Shown here one piece after another: positions 2,128 to 13,104 of a stretch of DNA of 15,101 bases; the first letter of the stretch is position 1, and each line of letters opens with the position of its first letter. The notes under the pieces were generated by a model. That model worked only from the letters and a program-made list of their open reading frames with translations, was not told where the DNA came from and did not search any database. The stretch is from a bacterium. GTDB taxonomy: Bacteria; UBP7; UBA6624. Location: assembly GCA_014384545.1 (NCBI GenBank), contig JACNFQ010000019.1:1-15101 (forward strand). The letters are read 5' to 3'. The position numbers were made by a program, and so were the translations under genes.

Positions 2128-3918
2128 ATGTGTGGCATCGTAGGACTCATCCGACAGAAAGACGCAGCTGGTGCCGTTCTTGAAGCGCTCCAACGGCTAG
2201 AGTATCGCGGATATGACTCGGTTGGGCTTGGTGTCATTGACCACAAATTGGATGTCTTTCGGAAGGAAGGAAAAATCAATGTTCTCTTGGATAGTTTCCA
2301 GGGTCAGTTCCCTGAAGGCGGTACGGCGATTGCCCATACTCGATGGGCTACTCATGGGCGTCCCGAGGTCAAGAATGCCCACCCCCTTTCGGATGGGGGT
2401 ATCGCTGTCGTCCACAACGGTATCATTGAGAACGAAGCCTCTTTGCGCCAAGAGTTGATTAAGGGAGGGGCTCTCTTTAGCTCTGATACTGATACGGAAG
2501 TGATTCTTCGACTCTTACTTGAAGATGGCGGTAAAGTGGAAGACGCCCTGCCAAGGATATTACCTCGATTGGAGGGCGCTTTTGCCTTAGCGATTTTGGA
2601 CGAAAGAGAGAGAAACCGAATCTTTTTTGCCCGTCGACACTCCCCTCTCGTCTTAGGGATTGGTGAGAAGGAGAATTGGATGGCGAGCGACCTATCTGCT
2701 TTCCTTCCCGAAACGAGAGAAGTCATCTTCTTGGAGGAGGATAGATGGGGATGGATAACTGAAGAAGATATTGAGATTCGTCGGAATGATGGCTCCCCCG
2801 TGAAGCCTCAGGTCAAGATATTTCCTTGGAATCCTGTTTCGGCTCAAAAGGGGCGTTTTTCCCACTTTATGCTGAAAGAGATCCACGAACAGCCTCGCGC
2901 AATAACAGATACGCTTTCGGATAAGCTATCCCCACAAGGTCTCCATCTTTCAGAGGATGTGGTCGCCTTGCTAAGAAAGACGAAAAGAATTCAGTGTGTC
3001 GCGTGTGGAACTTCGTTCAATGCCACACTCGCTTTCCGTTCTTGGGTCGAGAATATTGCGGGGATCCCCTGCGAAGTAGAAATCGCCAGCGAGTCAAGGA
3101 ATCGACCTCTTTTTCCCTCTGAAGGTCTCCTCGTAATTGCCGTTAGCCAAAGTGGAGAGACCTTTGATACCCTCAAAGCGGTTGAACCCTTCTTAGATGC
3201 CCAAGTCCCCGTTCTTTCCGTTGTCAATACGACGGGGAATTCTCTAGAGCGATGTTCAACGGCTATTCTCAGGACTCATGCCGGGATGGAAATTGGCGTC
3301 GCTGCGAGCAAGACACACTTGGCTCAGTTATCCACCCTTTTTCTTGTTGCCCTTCAGTTGGCGGAACTAGGGGGGACTGATATTTCCGATGAATTACTAG
3401 CTCTCAGACGCCTCCCCAGCGTGCTTGAGACGGTCCTTGGAATGGAGCGAGACATCAAGGAGATTGCTCAGCGGTTTACCGCCACTCAGAATGCCCTTTT
3501 CTTGGGCCGTCAACGCCATTGGTCCACAGCGATGGAGGGAAGCCTCAAACTCAAGGAAATCTCTTACATTCATGCTGAAGCCTATGCGGCTGGTGAGATG
3601 AAGCATGGACCGATAGCTCTCATATCTAAAGAGATGCTGGTCGTGATTATCGCTCCTTTTGATGACCATTTCAAGAAGATCTATGGCTCTCTGCGGGAGG
3701 TCGCTGCCCGTAAGGGGCGCATCCTCCTCCTTACGACTAAGGAAGCACCCGAAGTGTCCGAAGCGGAGATTACCTTGGTTCTTCCCACCACTATTCCCCT
3801 ACTGAGCGCCTTCCCGGCACTCGTCGCTCTCCAAATCTTTGCTTATTGGATTGCACGTGAACGGGGTCTAGATATCGATCAACCCCGCAACCTAGCGAAG
3901 ACGGTCACGGTGGAATGA
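2128..3918 (+). CDS. glmS: Glutamine-fructose-6-phosphate aminotransferase (isomerizing)
   Basis: GlmS makes glucosamine 6-phosphate from fructose 6-phosphate and glutamine, the first committed step to UDP-GlcNAc for peptidoglycan and lipopolysaccharide. The start is set at the ATG at 2128 because Cys2 in MCGIVGLI must become the N-terminal nucleophile after Met removal; the open frame extends further upstream but that part is not coding. The protein is 596 residues, normal for the family. The glutaminase domain covers about 1-225 (TRWATHG at 71-77, HNGIIEN at 96-102). Two SIS sugar-isomerase domains follow (CGTSFN at 293-298, SQSGET at 340-345), and the C-terminus is DQPRNLAKTVTVE. The usual GVASTKAFT is changed to GVAASKTHL (390-398). 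A weak AAGAAAG lies 4-10 bases before the start. The stop overlaps the next gene as ATGA. No glmS ribozyme is apparent: the 49-base leader is too short and pyrimidine-rich. Confidence 0.96.
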   Translation: MCGIVGLIRQKDAAGAVLEALQRLEYRGYDSVGLGVIDHKLDVFRKEGKINVLLDSFQGQFPEGGTAIAHTRWATHGRPEVKNAHPLSDGGIAVVHNGIIENEASLRQELIKGGALFSSDTDTEVILRLLLEDGGKVEDALPRILPRLEGAFALAILDERERNRIFFARRHSPLVLGIGEKENWMASDLSAFLPETREVIFLEEDRWGWITEEDIEIRRNDGSPVKPQVKIFPWNPVSAQKGRFSHFMLKEIHEQPRAITDTLSDKLSPQGLHLSEDVVALLRKTKRIQCVACGTSFNATLAFRSWVENIAGIPCEVEIASESRNRPLFPSEGLLVIAVSQSGETFDTLKAVEPFLDAQVPVLSVVNTTGNSLERCSTAILRTHAGMEIGVAASKTHLAQLSTLFLVALQLAELGGTDISDELLALRRLPSVLETVLGMERDIKEIAQRFTATQNALFLGRQRHWSTAMEGSLKLKEISYIHAEAYAAGEMKHGPIALISKEMLVVIIAPFDDHFKKIYGSLREVAARKGRILLLTTKEAPEVSEAEITLVLPTTIPLLSAFPALVALQIFAYWIARERGLDIDQPRNLAKTVTVE

Positions 3919-5237
3919 GAATCTTCCCTTTCGTCGTAGCAGCTTTTCTTTCCTTAGCCGCCAAACCTGTCCACTTGGTAGAGTGGGTCGATTTTAAGTG
4001 CCCCTTTTGTTCCCAGTTTGCATCGGAGACACTTCCTCTTCTCCAAGACAAGTTTGGTGATGACCTTATCATTGAGATTCGTCAGCTACCCATTGAGAGC
4101 CTCCATAAGGGAGCTACATTAGCCGCCGAGGCTTCGGTCTGCGCAGAGGATGGGGGCTTTTTTTGGGCTTTCCACGATGCGCTTTTCCATCTCCAAGGCG
4201 AACCTACACTGGAAGGGTTGCTCCGTCTTGCCCAACCCCTTGAAGGGGATTACAACGCCTACTCTTCTTGCCTTAGATTTGGAGGGGGGTTTGATCGTGT
4301 CGCTACCGACTTAGAGAGTGCAATCCGTCAAGGTATCCGTAGCACTCCCTTCTTCTTTATTGACGAGATTCCCATTGCAGGAAACCTCCCTACCGAGACC
4401 TTTGTTTCGCTCATTGAAAAAGCTCTTGACATCAGAACACCTCTGAAGCTCGTTGATATCGACCCCCCCATTCAAGGAGTCCTTCGGATTGATTCGGACT
4501 GTGGTGCGCCGTGCCAAGAAGGGATTTCACTTTGGCTAGAGCGGACTTTCCCCACATTGGACCTAAAGAGAGCACCCGCACCCGATGACATTGAAGCGTA
4601 CCCGTGGAGCCCCTATCTAGAAGTTGATACCGCCATAGCAGGCGCCTTCAGATTTTCGGAAGTTGCCCGTCGCTTGATTCCTCGTGGAGAAAGATGGGTC
4701 TTACGACCCTCTGTATTTGGTTCTGTTTATTTGCGTCGTGCCCCTATTGTGGAGAATCGACCCACCCGTGGAGAGGGTCCAACAGCTGTTTTTTACACCT
4801 CCTTTACCTGCCCCTATTGTGCCCAAGAAGCAAGACTGCTTGGTGAGGTGCAAAAGGAAGCACCCTTCCGTCTCGTTTTCAAGCACTTTATTCGGGTTCA
4901 AGAAGATATCCCTTTGGCAGTCGCGGCTGAATGTATTTGGCAACAGGGAGGAGATACTCTCTTCTGGCCCTTCTTTGATGCTTTACTTACGAACCGACCT
5001 AGAGACGAGGCTGCGCTGAATCTCCTCTTTGCAACGACGGGGCTCCCCACCACCACGAGGGCTGAATGTGCAGAAGACCCTCTTATCTTAGATGCGATTA
5101 GAACAGATCAAACTGAAGCGGATCTCTTTGGCATCGATGCGACCCCTGCTACAGTCTTGGGAAGGACTCTTCATATCGGCTTAGTAGACAAGAAGCAGAT
5201 TCTTTTTTGGGCTCAAGGAGGAAACGAGGATGATTGA
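3915..5237 (+). CDS. Secreted protein with two DsbA-like thioredoxin domains
   Basis: This 440-residue protein starts with a short hydrophobic segment (residues 3-16) that looks like a Sec signal peptide, then carries two DsbA/Thioredoxin_4-type domains. Domain 1 (about 18-172) has CPFC at 29-32 and the cis-proline signature TP at 144-145, plus Cys76 and Cys119. Domain 2 (about 288-430) has CPYC at 299-302 and TP at 410-411. Between them, residues 177-275 form a divergent region with SDCGAPC (Cys196, Cys200), which could be a third, decayed thioredoxin-like unit (inference). Expected role: disulfide formation or isomerisation in the periplasm. No DsbB or DsbD partner is visible here. The gene overlaps glmS by 4 bases and purB by 8, so it is transcribed with cytoplasmic biosynthetic genes, an odd setting for a periplasmic enzyme. 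An alternative is a specialised thiol chaperone for one client. The family assignment is firm; the function is not. Confidence 0.85.
   Translation: MRIFPFVVAAFLSLAAKPVHLVEWVDFKCPFCSQFASETLPLLQDKFGDDLIIEIRQLPIESLHKGATLAAEASVCAEDGGFFWAFHDALFHLQGEPTLEGLLRLAQPLEGDYNAYSSCLRFGGGFDRVATDLESAIRQGIRSTPFFFIDEIPIAGNLPTETFVSLIEKALDIRTPLKLVDIDPPIQGVLRIDSDCGAPCQEGISLWLERTFPTLDLKRAPAPDDIEAYPWSPYLEVDTAIAGAFRFSEVARRLIPRGERWVLRPSVFGSVYLRRAPIVENRPTRGEGPTAVFYTSFTCPYCAQEARLLGEVQKEAPFRLVFKHFIRVQEDIPLAVAAECIWQQGGDTLFWPFFDALLTNRPRDEAALNLLFATTGLPTTTRAECAEDPLILDAIRTDQTEADLFGIDATPATVLGRTLHIGLVDKKQILFWAQGGNEDD
5215..5221 (+). promoter_or_regulatory. Strong ribosome binding site for purB
   Basis: AAGGAGG lies inside the end of the preceding disulfide-protein gene, 8 bases before the purB ATG at 5230. 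It fixes that start and shows that purB is translated independently despite the 8-base overlap. Confidence 0.75.
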
Positions 5238-8167: not shown

Positions 8168-9052
8168 CTACATACCCTTAGAGCCTGCGCGATGAGCATC
8201 TCTTAGACCAAAGAGTGACATCGCCATACCAAGGACAACGGCGACCCCTAGGACATGAATAGAGAACATCATCAAGTCCCCCATCACGCCACTTGTCGCC
8301 ATACTCTCCATCCAGGAGCGCAACCCATTCCAGACCCAACCCAAGAGGGCACCACCAACGAGCCAAGATAGGTTCATGCGCCAGTTCTGGGCGATTCCCC
8401 ACCATCTCTTCAACACATTCATGAGAGACGCTAATGGGGCTTCGTTTTCGCCTTGAGAGATGAAGATAGCAAGGACGGCAGGAATCCCAAAAAAGAGCAT
8501 CGCCAAGATACCAGGACCCCACAAAGTGGCGTTCATCTCTGGCCAAGGAACCATCTGTCCTTCAGACAATCCCTCTTTGGCTGTACTCAGTGCAGGAATC
8601 ATTGATAGGAGAGCTCCTCCAGCCCATAAGAGGATTAGAGAGCCAGTAACGGTTGCCAAGAACTCCGGTACACGCTTGACGGGGTTTCTTAGCCAGTCCC
8701 CAATCATTCCAAACCCTCCACCCCCTTCCCACAGGGATTTCAACGATTCAAGCGCAAGAATCATCGCTGCTGCAGCGGCAATCGCCGTCAACAACCCGAA
8801 GATCCATCCCGAAGAGAAACCTTGCCATGCTGATGCGGGGTTGAAACCACCTGACATCGTCTGAGAGAATGCAAATGTCGCAGCGACAAGAACGAAGCCT
8901 CGCCAATCTCCCAAGACGCGGCGAAACCCCTGCCAGGGCAAAACCATCACATCTGAGTCCAAAATCAGAACCCAAACAGTTCGAGCAGCATAGGCGAGTA
9001 CAACCCACCCCACTGCATTGACCATAATCGTAATCAAACTAGAGAAATCCAA
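8168..9052 (-). CDS. Polytopic inner-membrane protein of unknown function
   Basis: I do not recognise this 294-residue protein. It has six or seven hydrophobic segments, roughly at 5-30, 52-65, 82-103, 131-152, 178-198, 227-246 and 258-282. Polar or charged loops lie between, including a Gly-rich stretch GGGGFG at 110-115 and a probable amphipathic piece NVLKRWWGIAQNW (212-224). There are no Cys residues and no CxxCH. The start is the TTG at 9050-9052, chosen because AAGGAGG lies exactly 8 bases upstream; no ATG is placed as well. The gene lies downstream of the quinol oxidase operon on the same strand, behind a candidate terminator, so it may have its own transcript. A membrane chaperone, permease-like protein or accessory respiratory protein are all possible; none is supported by a motif. 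Confidence 0.75.
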   Translation of the reverse strand: MDFSSLITIMVNAVGWVVLAYAARTVWVLILDSDVMVLPWQGFRRVLGDWRGFVLVAATFAFSQTMSGGFNPASAWQGFSSGWIFGLLTAIAAAAAMILALESLKSLWEGGGGFGMIGDWLRNPVKRVPEFLATVTGSLILLWAGGALLSMIPALSTAKEGLSEGQMVPWPEMNATLWGPGILAMLFFGIPAVLAIFISQGENEAPLASLMNVLKRWWGIAQNWRMNLSWLVGGALLGWVWNGLRSWMESMATSGVMGDLMMFSIHVLGVAVVLGMAMSLFGLRDAHRAGSKGM

Positions 9053-9187: not shown

Positions 9188-10681
9188 TTACTGGAGCGAT
9201 TTCATATAAGCGATAATCGCTTGTAGATCTTCTTCTGAAAGCGTCTTTTCAAAGCCTCCAGGCATCATCCCTGCAAAGTAACCTTGGGCTACTTTCGCCA
9301 TCGGTTCCAAAATGGACTCTAGCATGTATTGTTCATCAGCCACAACGACAGTACCATCCGAAAGTATGCGTTCACTTCCATATAGCCCCTTCCAAGTAGG
9401 ACCCACCACCCGAATCCCCGTAATGGAGTGGCACGCCAGACATCCCGCCTTTTCGGCGATAGCCTGACCCACTGCCTCCAAGTCCTGAGCTTCAAAGAGC
9501 TCTTCGCTCTCATACCCTTGAGCAGGTCCCAAAATGGCACCTTCTAGGGGGGGGAGGGGCTCCAAATGGTTCATCGCTTCGTAACGCCTTGATGCCAACC
9601 GCGCATGCTCGCCCCGCTCACCTTCAGTCGGTCGCAGTTCGTGCCTGTTGGGGTTGTGACAGGTAATACAGACATTCCGGTCGGCGGAGATGCGCGCCAC
9701 CAAGGCACCTTCACCTTGAAAACTATGGGGGCCTGTCTTAGTAGGTACGGTGCCCCGCATCATCAGCCCCGCGAAAACTTCGCCCGGTCCGTGACACGCC
9801 TCACAAGTAACTCCTCCATCCCTATAAGTATCAGTTGCACTGTCATACCCTGTGGTATGGCACCCCTTACAGTTGGCTCTGTAGGCCTCTTCGGACAACC
9901 CCCTCGCCAAGAGAATCTCTGCTGGTGGCGTCAGATAGTCAGGCTCCTTTTCAACGACCCTAAAACTCTCAAACTTGCTCTCGCTCCATCGATCAATGTG
10001 GTCCCATGTTCTCTCCGAGTAGATATGTTCTGTGAGTCCTGTAGATCGTGCATGACAGGATAGGCAGACAGCGACACCGAACGTCCCCATCGGTTTCCCT
10101 GTGATACTGACATCTCTGTAGTCAGGTTGGCTTTCGGCTAGAGGATTTGAAAGGGGAGGAGAGACCTCTCTTAGCCTGTTCCAGAAAGAGATAATTGCAG
10201 CCGCATTTTCACTGTGGCTGTCCCACAAGGGTGCTTCCATTTCCGCCACACTCTTTTTCAAGCCATGGTGGGCACGGTGAATCTCCAAAGCCATTCTGTC
10301 TCCCCCATGACAAACCGTACACCCAAAGAAAGAGGTGGGGAATCGAGGATTTACATTTTCCAAGTGCCAACTTTCCAGCCCAGAATCGTCCACATGGCAC
10401 GAGCCACACCTTTCGACCTCACCAGATGCAAGGAAGAGCTGTCGAATCCCCCGTGGGGGCTTCCCCTCTGCTTCGCCTCGGTAATAGGCAGCCAATTCGC
10501 TGTTCCCTGCACTTTCTTCGGCAAGGGCAAGAGCGAGATAAGCCTCGTCTTGATAAACCCTGTAAGGCGGATTCATCTCCTTATAGATGAGTCCTCCGAC
10601 CAAGAGAACGAGAAAGAGGGATGAGATTGTGAACCAACTATCGACTTTCCGGTCCAACCCATCATTCAACGGCTTGTTCAT
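9188..10681 (-). CDS. Membrane-anchored seven-haem cytochrome c, subunit of the Rieske/cytochrome b complex
   Basis: The start is the ATG at 10681, which overlaps the stop of the subunit IV gene in an ATGA; the open frame extends 39 codons further but into that gene. The 497-residue protein has one N-terminal transmembrane anchor (about 16-33, preceded by DRK), so the rest should be periplasmic. Seven CxxCH motifs begin at Cys92, 121, 206, 271, 293, 338 and 414. The first six are in a cytochrome c554-like multihaem region (about 85-345). The last belongs to a C-terminal class I cytochrome c domain (about 400-497) with a likely Met ligand in AGMMPGGF (470-477) and the end helix SEEDLQAIIAYMKSL. 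No cytochrome c1 or f gene is present, so this protein probably takes their place as electron exit from the Rieske protein. Haem number follows from motif count; haem ligation and redox partners are inferred. Confidence 0.9.
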   Translation of the reverse strand: MNKPLNDGLDRKVDSWFTISSLFLVLLVGGLIYKEMNPPYRVYQDEAYLALALAEESAGNSELAAYYRGEAEGKPPRGIRQLFLASGEVERCGSCHVDDSGLESWHLENVNPRFPTSFFGCTVCHGGDRMALEIHRAHHGLKKSVAEMEAPLWDSHSENAAAIISFWNRLREVSPPLSNPLAESQPDYRDVSITGKPMGTFGVAVCLSCHARSTGLTEHIYSERTWDHIDRWSESKFESFRVVEKEPDYLTPPAEILLARGLSEEAYRANCKGCHTTGYDSATDTYRDGGVTCEACHGPGEVFAGLMMRGTVPTKTGPHSFQGEGALVARISADRNVCITCHNPNRHELRPTEGERGEHARLASRRYEAMNHLEPLPPLEGAILGPAQGYESEELFEAQDLEAVGQAIAEKAGCLACHSITGIRVVGPTWKGLYGSERILSDGTVVVADEQYMLESILEPMAKVAQGYFAGMMPGGFEKTLSEEDLQAIIAYMKSLQ

Positions 10682-11709
10682 ATATTCAACCACGGTGTCA
10701 CAAGGATGTACTTGATGCCAAAGATGAGACGCCAAAGAATCTTCCCTACCACCCCAAAAATCATACCCGTAAAGAGCATCGCTGTCCCGTAGCGCCACAA
10801 TCCCAACCTACGGAAAAAGAGGGGATTGAGGAGTGCGGGAATCACCAAGAATGCTATGTGCCAACTTCCCAATATCACCAAGCCAATCGCCATGTGATAG
10901 GGATGGTCTGGAGCCAAAGTATTCCCATCCACATCCTTCAAAGGTGTCCATGCCAAAGGAATCGCAGGGGGAGGGGTCAATTCTTCCCATGCCCCTCCTC
11001 TCCACACGTAGCTCTTCCCAATCGCGGTTCCCGTTCCCTCTTCTCCAGGCTCAAGATGGAAGACAGCCCCACTGGAGAAGGTTGCCCCCTCTTCATTCTC
11101 CATCTCCGATCCAAGAGTCCCCTCCATCATTGCCAAACCACCCTCTAGGTCGGGGCAAGAACGGTAGATAAAGGGCTCTTGAGCCCCTCGCCAACAATCA
11201 GTTGGCATGTAGAGATCCCAGTTCGTCCCTCTAAAGTAAAGCCCAAAGACTATGAGTGCGAACCAAAGAAACATCCCAAACCCAAATACCCCTAGCGCAA
11301 AGGGTCGCTCTTTCGGAGCAAATCGTCCGATTCCCTTTAGGTTCGTATCCACAAAGGGAATGAGGATAAGCCCCACAATGATGAGTGTAGGCAAGACGAC
11401 CCCAGCTAGCCAAGGATCAAAATAGACCAAGAGTTCTTGTAGCCCCACAAAGTACCACGGCGCTTTGGCGGGATTTGGTGTATGAGCATGGTTGGCGATT
11501 TCTTCAAGTGGGGCATCAAAAACCAAAGAGGCAATCGTCAACAAGACGGTCAATACCACAGCACCAGCAACGACCTGCTTGATGAGCGCTGGCCAGGTAA
11601 AGACAGACTCTTCGGGTGGAGGATTCTGGAGACGCTGCATCTTCCGACGAAGTGCATCTCTTTCCTTAGCTTCATGCTTTAGGAATCTACTTAGTGTCTT
11701 CTTATCCAT
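10678..11709 (-). CDS. Enlarged cytochrome b C-terminal subunit (subunit IV-like)
   Basis: This is the C-terminal half of a split cytochrome b. Residues 41-160 match subunit IV of cytochrome b6f: helices at about 41-63, 100-120 and 137-158, with the quinol-site loop reading KAPWYFVGLQELL (82-94). The canonical PEWY is thus APWY, with Pro84 in place of the Glu. The protein is 343 residues against about 160 for plant subunit IV. After the third helix comes a soluble stretch of about 110 residues (160-270) with Cys172 and Cys185, then further hydrophobic segments at about 271-293 and 305-337. From standard subunit IV topology the insert should face the periplasm (inference). A charged 35-residue N-terminal extension, probably cytoplasmic, precedes helix one. 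The gene begins 3 bases after cytochrome b6 and has no clear ribosome binding site. Confidence 0.88.
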   Translation of the reverse strand: MDKKTLSRFLKHEAKERDALRRKMQRLQNPPPEESVFTWPALIKQVVAGAVVLTVLLTIASLVFDAPLEEIANHAHTPNPAKAPWYFVGLQELLVYFDPWLAGVVLPTLIIVGLILIPFVDTNLKGIGRFAPKERPFALGVFGFGMFLWFALIVFGLYFRGTNWDLYMPTDCWRGAQEPFIYRSCPDLEGGLAMMEGTLGSEMENEEGATFSSGAVFHLEPGEEGTGTAIGKSYVWRGGAWEELTPPPAIPLAWTPLKDVDGNTLAPDHPYHMAIGLVILGSWHIAFLVIPALLNPLFFRRLGLWRYGTAMLFTGMIFGVVGKILWRLIFGIKYILVTPWLNI

Positions 11710-11712
11710 CAG

Positions 11713-12573
11713 TTATGTTTGGGGGAACGAGAAGCCATCTTTCCGAACACGCCAGAAATGATAGCAGATCATGATTGTAAGTACGAGGGGAAGGAAGAAG
11801 ACATGGAGGACATAAAACCTAATGAGCCCCGCAGGACCAATCTCGGTTCCTCCCACCAAACCAAAAGCAGCATCGTGCATATTATCCACGACAGCAAAGG
11901 GGCCCAAATGACCCAAGATGGGGGTATTGGCAGCCATCTGCTTTCCCACAGTAATAGCCCACAAGGAGAGTTGGTCCCAAGGAAGGAGATACCCCGTGAA
12001 CGAGAGGAGAAGCGTAAGGACCAACATAATTACGCCCAAGACCCAATTCAACTGGCGGGGTGGTCTATATGAGCCCGTAAAAAAGACGCGCGCCATATGG
12101 AAAATCGTCGTAAAGACCATCGCATGGGCTGCCCAACGGTGCATATTTCTCAAGAACATCCCAAAAGGGTAAACTCCTTCCCTAAAGTCAACCATATCAT
12201 AGTAAGCCAAGGGCACACTGGGTCGGTAGTAAAACATCAAGAGGACGCCTGTAATCGTCAAGACGATAAAGAACCATGTCGTTGTAAGACCCAGCCCCAA
12301 ATGGTAGGAAATACGCAAGTCGTTTCGGTGGGATTTGGGAGGCCACAAGTGTAGAAAGAGACTGTCTTTCATGACCTTGGTCCGTTGCCCCGCTGAATCG
12401 ATAGGACTCCTAACCGTATAGGTGCCGCGGTAAACTTCTGTGTCTACTAACCAATCGAGGAATACTCTCCAGCTTTCTCCTAGTTTGGAGAGTGAAAGGA
12501 CGGAGAGGATCGCCGTAATAAGGCGGTTCCCGAGTTCAAAGGGGTTAGGGATCTTGGGGAAGCGTGGACTCAT
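11713..12573 (-). CDS. Cytochrome b6-like N-terminal cytochrome b subunit
   Basis: This 286-residue protein is the four-helix, two-haem half of a split cytochrome b that oxidises quinol in the inner membrane. The haem ligands are His145 and His159 (MHRW...IFHMARVF, 14 apart) and His257 and His272 (VLHVFF...YHFW, 15 apart). A spacing of 15 in helix D is the b6 pattern; mitochondrial-type bc1 has 14. YYRPSV (115-120) and [10 protein letters not shown] (197-206) are also conserved. By eye the position of the covalent haem cysteine of plant b6 (Cys35) is Gly93, and the only Cys in the protein is Cys270, so a thioether-bound extra haem is unlikely. An 80-residue N-terminal extension with an amphipathic stretch (17-43) precedes the core. 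Its ATG follows the Rieske TAA with no gap, indicating coupled translation. Confidence 0.93.
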
Positions 12574-13104
12574 TTACAGCGTCAAGAAAAAAGCAGGATC
12601 TTTCGTTTCATCTATTTCCTGACCAGCTACAATCTTCACTTTGGGGGAAAGTGTATCCGACTTGTCCACTTCAAGACGCCCATCTGGAGCCAAACTGAGG
12701 TTTGCCCTCAAGAGAGGATAAGGAGCTGGTCCATAGAAGTTTCGGGCATACCGGTCATACTTGCTCCCGTGGCACGGGCACTCAAAAAGCCCCGCACCAA
12801 AGACCTCATGGACAAGCTCTGGATGCCAGTTAGGCTTACATCCTAAGTGGGTGCATTTGGCGATAAGTGCTGCGTATCCTTCTGGATAATGACCAATCCA
12901 AACACCCCGTCCTGTAAGGAAAGTAATCGAACCTTCAGGGTATACCGAAGGAGCACCCGCTTTGAACTTCTGAGGAGGCTCATAGGTCGCATTCGGAAAA
13001 AGGAATTTGAGAAATGAGAGGAGGCTTCCTCCTACATAAAGAGCGACTGAAGAATAACCGAGCACCAATAGCCCGATAAAGCCTCTACGATTCGTCTTCT
13101 CCAT
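12574..13104 (-). CDS. Rieske [2Fe-2S] protein of the quinol oxidase complex
   Basis: The Rieske subunit takes an electron from quinol and passes it to the c-type cytochrome. The 176-residue protein starts MEKTNRRGFIG, a twin-arginine export signal with an uncleaved hydrophobic anchor (about 9-36). The cluster-binding motifs are CTHLGC (84-89) and CPCHGS (109-114): two Cys and two His ligands plus the extra Cys pair for the disulfide. The start at the ATG 13104 places the RR motif near the N-terminus, as in the family. An in-frame ATG at 13188 would add 28 residues (MSRILHFHLESLF...) and cannot be excluded, because neither start has a well-spaced ribosome binding site. It is the first gene of the operon Rieske, cytochrome b6, subunit IV, multihaem cytochrome c. 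Confidence 0.93.
   Translation of the reverse strand: MEKTNRRGFIGLLVLGYSSVALYVGGSLLSFLKFLFPNATYEPPQKFKAGAPSVYPEGSITFLTGRGVWIGHYPEGYAALIAKCTHLGCKPNWHPELVHEVFGAGLFECPCHGSKYDRYARNFYGPAPYPLLRANLSLAPDGRLEVDKSDTLSPKVKIVAGQEIDETKDPAFFLTL

Follow-up and report, generated by a model that had tools for sequence, protein, structure and literature searches.

A Rieske/cytochrome b gene set with a heptahaem cytochrome c that ends in an oxidase-type class I domain, from a UBP7 bacterium

Four adjacent genes in a 15,101-nucleotide stretch of bacterial DNA (the window, which is the entire contig C68 of the 1.39-Mb, 79% complete metagenome-assembled genome (MAG) G000) are read here as encoding a quinol-oxidising Rieske/cytochrome b complex, an analogue of complex III of the anammox-like multihaem kind, whose terminal class I cytochrome c domain would feed a caa3-type oxidase. 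We put the probability of this reading at about 0.6. The general design is already known and widespread; what sets this case apart is the oxidase-type cytochrome fused to its end. All four genes lie on the minus strand, in the order Rieske, cytochrome b, subunit IV (SU IV) and multihaem cytochrome:

12574..13104, minus strand: Rieske [2Fe-2S] protein, 176 residues, identified by its ligand boxes, one transmembrane (TM) helix, Pfam and PDB matches
11713..12573, minus strand: cytochrome b, b6-type with four helices, 286 residues, identified by Pfam and its His ligands
10678..11709, minus strand: SU IV, 343 residues, five TM helices, identified by hydropathy, the KAPWYF quinol-site motif and alignment
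9188..10681, minus strand: heptahaem cytochrome c, membrane-anchored, 497 residues, identified by seven CxxCH motifs and Pfam

The cytochrome b ATG follows immediately after the Rieske stop codon, cytochrome b and SU IV are spaced by 3 base pairs (bp), and the SU IV and cytochrome genes overlap by 4 bp (ATGA), which bears out the gene coupling noted in a preliminary description of this DNA. That description had also named the four products, from the Rieske protein and b6-like cytochrome b to the 497-residue anchored cytochrome, and every detail checked against the open reading frames and Pfam agreed with it. The phylum is represented in the comparison set by three MAGs, namely the source genome and two sister MAGs (G001 and G002).

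The Rieske protein carries RRGF near its N terminus, a single N-terminal TM helix and the ligand boxes CTHLGC at residue 84 and CPCHGS (CPCHGSKYD) at residue 109 (Pfam Rieske, E=1.5e-5). The CHGSKYD box retains the Ser and Tyr that are typical of high-potential Rieske proteins. The top two of its 59 PDB matches were crystal structures of Kuenenia Rieske proteins (PMC12954380), 9rk4 (E=3.1e-19; Kuste4569) and 9rk3 (E=6.9e-17; Kustd1480), with the third at 3.2e-10. Cytochrome b (Pfam Cytochrome_B, E=2.7e-35) has the haem ligands His145/His159 in helix B and His257/His272 in helix D; the spacing of 15 in helix D is of the b6 type, as previously proposed. At the column of b6 Cys35, the haem-cN Cys of cytochrome b6f, the window protein has Gly, with a His two positions earlier; family members mostly have Cys at this column, and a sizeable minority have Gly. 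A cytochrome b tree placed the window beside Entotheonella on long branches, a placement that is not relied on. The TM helices of cytochrome b and SU IV were predicted from hydropathy only. SU IV (Pfam Cytochrom_B_C, E=9.4e-5) contains the quinol-site motif APWY that had been noted earlier, and KAPWYF is invariant across a 13-member family alignment. The subunit had been described as enlarged; its five-TM form proved to be common to the family, and a loop of about 110 residues was limited to this phylum:

11452..11463, minus strand: APWY motif of SU IV, residues 83-86, located by alignment
10900..11229, minus strand: periplasmic insertion of SU IV, about 110 residues between TM3 and TM4, present only in the window and the sister genus

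The fourth gene encodes exactly seven CxxCH motifs, at residues 92, 121, 206, 271, 293, 338 and 414, and all 14 Cys of the protein lie within them. Shuffled versions of the sequence contained a mean of 0.013 CxxCH motifs, with a maximum of 2. The count of seven in an anchored 497-residue cytochrome was thereby confirmed, as was the assignment of the last domain to the class I cytochromes c (Pfam Cytochrom_C at the C terminus, E=3.8e-10):

10394..10408, minus strand: haem motif 1, CGSCH
10307..10321, minus strand: haem motif 2, CTVCH
10052..10066, minus strand: haem motif 3, CLSCH
9857..9871, minus strand: haem motif 4, CKGCH
9791..9805, minus strand: haem motif 5, CEACH
9656..9670, minus strand: haem motif 6, CITCH
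9428..9442, minus strand: haem motif 7, CLACH
9188..9475, minus strand: C-terminal class I cytochrome c domain, residues 403-497, of caa3-oxidase type, with none in the sister genus

Haems 1-6 align with cytochromes from Brocadiales and Scalindua that have six haems (34-35% identity), with all CxxCH motifs in register save for a small insertion at Scalindua motif 6. Haems 1-2 form the N-terminal module common to the family, and haems 3-6 match a c554-like module. The heptahaem protein is composed of an anammox-like part with six haems and a single class I domain, the latter preceded by a linker of about 30 residues that AlphaFold2 predicted with low confidence, the domain itself being predicted better. 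The cytochrome of the sister genus (G001) has six haems (five CxxCH motifs were read and the sixth is masked by one unread residue) and stops short of the class I domain; the next gene lies only about 100 bp away. The class I domain is therefore either an addition specific to the lineage of the window or a loss in G001.

Cytochrome c1 (PF02167) had no match, and cytochrome f (PF01333) none over cut-off, in the source MAG and the two sister MAGs; because of this, the multihaem protein is taken to stand in for c1 or f, in agreement with the preliminary description. PF01333 matches on contigs C38 and C69 fell below cut-off within long frames and were rejected. Searches with PF00034 and PF13442 for class I cytochromes recovered only the COX2-fused domain in G001, and the same in G002 bar one weak match below cut-off. 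The source MAG yielded three fused domains, a 223-residue protein at the end of contig C78 and, on contig C72, one of 328 residues that contains helix-hairpin-helix repeats. No small soluble cytochrome c was recognised with these profiles in the three MAGs, all of which are incomplete.

The nearest relatives of the seventh-haem domain in 78 diverse genomes were COX2-fused in 15 of 16 cases, and its best PDB match was 1w2l (E=4.7e-23), titled 'cytochrome oxidase subunit II'. By these matches the domain is assigned to the family that occurs as COX2 fusions in caa3 oxidases. The best match overall came from the oxidase of the same MAG, whose COX4-like subunit carries a class I domain (46% identity, 105 bits); the two domains share an extra residue before MMP. 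This caa3-type oxidase is split over the ends of contigs C69 and C74. All three MAGs have a class I domain on COX2. The COX4-like subunit carries a class I cytochrome c in the source MAG (L035 9842-10579, minus strand) and a plastocyanin/azurin-type cupredoxin in G001 (L163 10260-11003, plus strand; Pfam Copper-bind, 7e-9) and in G002 (L164 10102-10845, plus strand), where it is nearly identical in sequence.

From these sequences we infer how electrons would travel, which partner would receive them and that a separate carrier would be lacking. Quinol would be oxidised at a site formed by cytochrome b and the APWY motif of SU IV. The low-potential electron would cross the two b haems to the n-side, with no haem cN, while the high-potential electron would pass from the Rieske head to the membrane-proximal haems 1-2, on to haems 3-6 and then to the tethered class I domain. 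That domain may swing on its linker and deliver electrons to the caa3-type oxidase, with no dedicated soluble cytochrome c. The acceptor is probably the matching class I domain on the COX4-like subunit, or else the one on COX2; from the COX4 domain, electrons would proceed to the COX2 haem and then to CuA. The oxidase-type fusion suggests that the complex is coupled directly to the enzyme that reduces oxygen.

The preliminary description had suggested that the complex could dock directly to a terminal oxidase or reductase without a soluble carrier, and for an oxidase the idea now has real but circumstantial support, because the domain is of the caa3 type, its best match lies on the COX4-like subunit of the organism's own oxidase, COX4 bears a cupredoxin in the sister genus and no other clear class I cytochrome was found in the sister MAGs; nor was a dedicated soluble class I cytochrome recognised. 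Several observations weigh on the other side. The genes for the bc complex and those for the oxidase are on separate contigs, and the co-variation of the bc and oxidase domains amounts to one contrast between two genera only. In a domain tree, the pairing of the bc and COX4 class I domains was supported at only 0.65. An AlphaFold2 model of the cytochrome (12-row alignment) reached a mean predicted local distance difference test score of 54, its confident parts being limited to the region of the TM helix and to the class I domain. The C78 and C72 proteins are two further class I cytochromes in the source MAG, and at 79% completeness a soluble carrier may be missing from the assembly.

A bolder evolutionary version, which we regard as tentative and somewhat against the odds, is that two paralogous class I domains, one tethered to the multihaem subunit of the bc complex and the other to COX4 of the oxidase, were gained as a matched pair that replaced the cupredoxin hand-over of the sister genus. 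The carrier would then have been exchanged by fusion on both sides, giving a chain without a diffusible carrier.

The alternative that survives best, although we consider it rather unlikely, is that the terminal class I domain passes electrons to several diffusible acceptors in the periplasm (the nitrous oxide reductase NosZ, periplasmic nitrate reductase and other cytochromes) instead of docking to the oxidase. It draws on the nos genes (named by eye from sequence) that directly adjoin the oxidase genes in the source MAG, on a NapA/NapB-like cluster in the same genome and on the two other class I cytochromes. The Nap cluster, however, has a Rieske/cytochrome b pair and an octahaem cytochrome of its own, and the class I domain of the window is of the COX2/caa3 type, with its best match on the organism's own oxidase. 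This second Rieske/cytochrome b cluster (contig C70 14000-33900, L034; 5842-12010, plus strand) encodes a one-piece 345-residue cytochrome b, an HAO-like octahaem cytochrome, a NapA that exceeds its NCBIfam cut-off and a tetrahaem protein resembling NapB, and looks like a quinol-to-nitrate-reductase complex. Elsewhere in the MAG, contig C40 (L037) carries two MauG-like di-haem peroxidases; next come a Tat-type Rieske protein and a molybdenum enzyme resembling arsenite oxidase, which is truncated by the contig end.

A profile search of bacterial contigs with SU IV gave at least 581 confirmed matches, and the best 80 loci were read. A multihaem cytochrome gene lies directly downstream of SU IV in 73 of these 80, with eight haems in 57, five in 11 and incomplete or other counts in the remainder. 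The order Rieske–cytochrome b–SU IV–multihaem cytochrome is therefore conserved, recurring in these 73 loci, in the sister genus and across at least 15 bacterial phyla among the best 80 matches, including Acidobacteriota, Planctomycetota, Nitrospinota, Omnitrophota, Elusimicrobiota, Poribacteria, Methylomirabilota, Gemmatimonadota, Chlorobiota and Bdellovibrionota. No second seven-haem (six plus one) protein was seen among the 73 loci, and the only further six-haem relatives recovered by search were those of G001, the anammox loci and two other genomes (G209 and G387). G209, from another phylum than the window, combines a hexahaem complex with a GltD-like NAD(P) oxidoreductase in a Kuenenia-like arrangement (L188 5513-10842, minus strand). 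In Omnitrophota and Elusimicrobiota loci (L070, L071, L074, L080, L083, L121, L127, L129 and L134), cytochrome b and SU IV are fused into proteins of 490-600 residues with a five-haem cytochrome downstream, and a five-haem homologue from Entotheonella (L077 6845-8155, plus strand) has, like the window protein, a class I domain at its end. Earlier work on anammox and on multiple Rieske/cytochrome b complexes reportedly exists, and specialists likely know the arrangement. Novelty of the arrangement is not supported: relatives occur in hundreds of loci, and the published Kuenenia complexes have a b6-like cytochrome b, an SU IV with five helices and, in the role of cytochrome f, a cytochrome with six or eight haems (PMC12954380). 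Searches of the open-access literature turned up no earlier account of the heptahaem form, nor any of the wider family beyond anammox bacteria and Geobacter.

It is improbable that the complex is Ext-like and exports electrons to metal or chalcogen oxyanions. The best NCBIfam models were ExtP for cytochrome b and ExtQ for SU IV, and the Geobacter cluster that includes ExtO/P/Q has been linked to the reduction of selenite and tellurite (PMC5877670), but both scores fall under the curated cut-offs (234.1 versus 290 for ExtP; 55.4 versus 150 for ExtQ), no porin or outer-membrane cytochrome lies beside the complex, and the last domain is of the oxidase type. We give still less credence to a Kuenenia-like electron bifurcation that makes NAD(P)H and passes the high-potential electron to a nitrogen-oxide reductase. 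The nearest solved Rieske relatives are from Kuenenia and the hexahaem subunit is homologous (PMC12954380), but the 15-kb window has no open reading frame for an NAD(P) oxidoreductase, no HAO-like gene lies beside the four genes, and the haem-cN Cys is replaced by Gly; the absence of the flavoprotein is informative because G209 keeps one with its hexahaem complex. That the seventh haem is an artefact of two genes fused by misassembly or a frameshift is hardly credible, for all that the sister-genome protein ends ahead of the class I domain, given the single gap-free frame of 497 codons and a contig that retains the sister gene order on both sides (glmS-dsbA-purB-purC-purQ and ubiE).

The neighbourhood in G001 has the same make-up, comprising glmS, dsbA, purB, purC, purQ, a multi-TM protein, the four complex genes and a divergent ubiE. 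Identities between the two genera are 82% for cytochrome b, 73% for the Rieske protein, 68% for SU IV and 56% for the cytochrome. The multi-TM protein is a possible accessory subunit of the complex:

8168..9052, minus strand: multi-TM protein of no known family, downstream of the cytochrome, with 38% identity to the protein at the same place in the sister genus

Further along the window (3915-5237, plus strand), a 440-residue protein with tandem DsbA/thioredoxin-like domains (CPFC and CPYC) is kept at the equivalent place in G001.

The best-known case of carrier-free transfer between complexes III and IV is that of Actinobacteria, which rely on a dihaem cytochrome for it. If the reading preferred here, of a multihaem complex feeding a caa3-type oxidase, is true, an anammox-like complex reached a carrier-free hand-over by adding an oxidase-type cytochrome domain; the transfer principle is already known, and the parts used here differ. 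The swap of cupredoxin and cytochrome on the oxidase of sister genera would be a natural experiment on the co-evolution of hand-over partners. The multihaem complex III family spans at least 15 phyla, whereas the open-access papers found cover just two cases in detail, the anammox bacteria and, under the name Ext, Geobacter.

Among known systems, the complexes of Kuenenia stuttgartiensis (Kuste4569-4574 and Kustd1480-1485; PMC12954380) share with the window the Rieske protein, the b6-like four-helix cytochrome b, the five-helix SU IV and a multihaem cytochrome c in place of cytochrome f. As in the Kuenenia type, the window has the gene for a TM-anchored multihaem cytochrome directly downstream, and related anammox loci show the homologous hexahaem order. 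Unlike the Kuenenia complexes, the window lacks the NAD(P) oxidoreductase, the HAO-like gene and the haem-cN Cys, and adds the C-terminal class I cytochrome c and the SU IV loop. The wider family shares the gene order, APWY, the TM-anchored cytochrome and its two-haem N-terminal module, and several members have C-terminal class I domains, whereas their haems mostly number eight (57/73) or five (11/73). Geobacter ExtOPQ (PMC5877670) comprises a Rieske protein, a b-type cytochrome and a membrane protein homologous to cytochrome b and SU IV, with multihaem cytochromes nearby, but differs in its other cytochromes, its porin cluster and its inferred role, and the window proteins score below the NCBIfam cut-offs. 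Cytochrome b6f likewise has b6 and SU IV as separate subunits and a spacing of 15 in helix D; the window, by contrast, has no cytochrome f over cut-off, no haem-cN Cys and five helices in SU IV instead of three. Compared with cytochrome bc1, it lacks c1 (PF02167 absent) and its cytochrome b is split, not one-piece. For Actinobacteria it is established that electrons pass directly from one fused carrier to another, and the same has been reported for Bacillus (PMC9145763). The actinobacterial bcc-aa3 supercomplex and the Bacillus bc:caa3 system (PMC9145763) likewise have extra c haems on the bc complex or the oxidase, which allow transfer without a soluble carrier, but there the cytochrome is a dihaem QcrC, whereas here a six-haem part is joined to a class I domain, an unrelated cytochrome c architecture.

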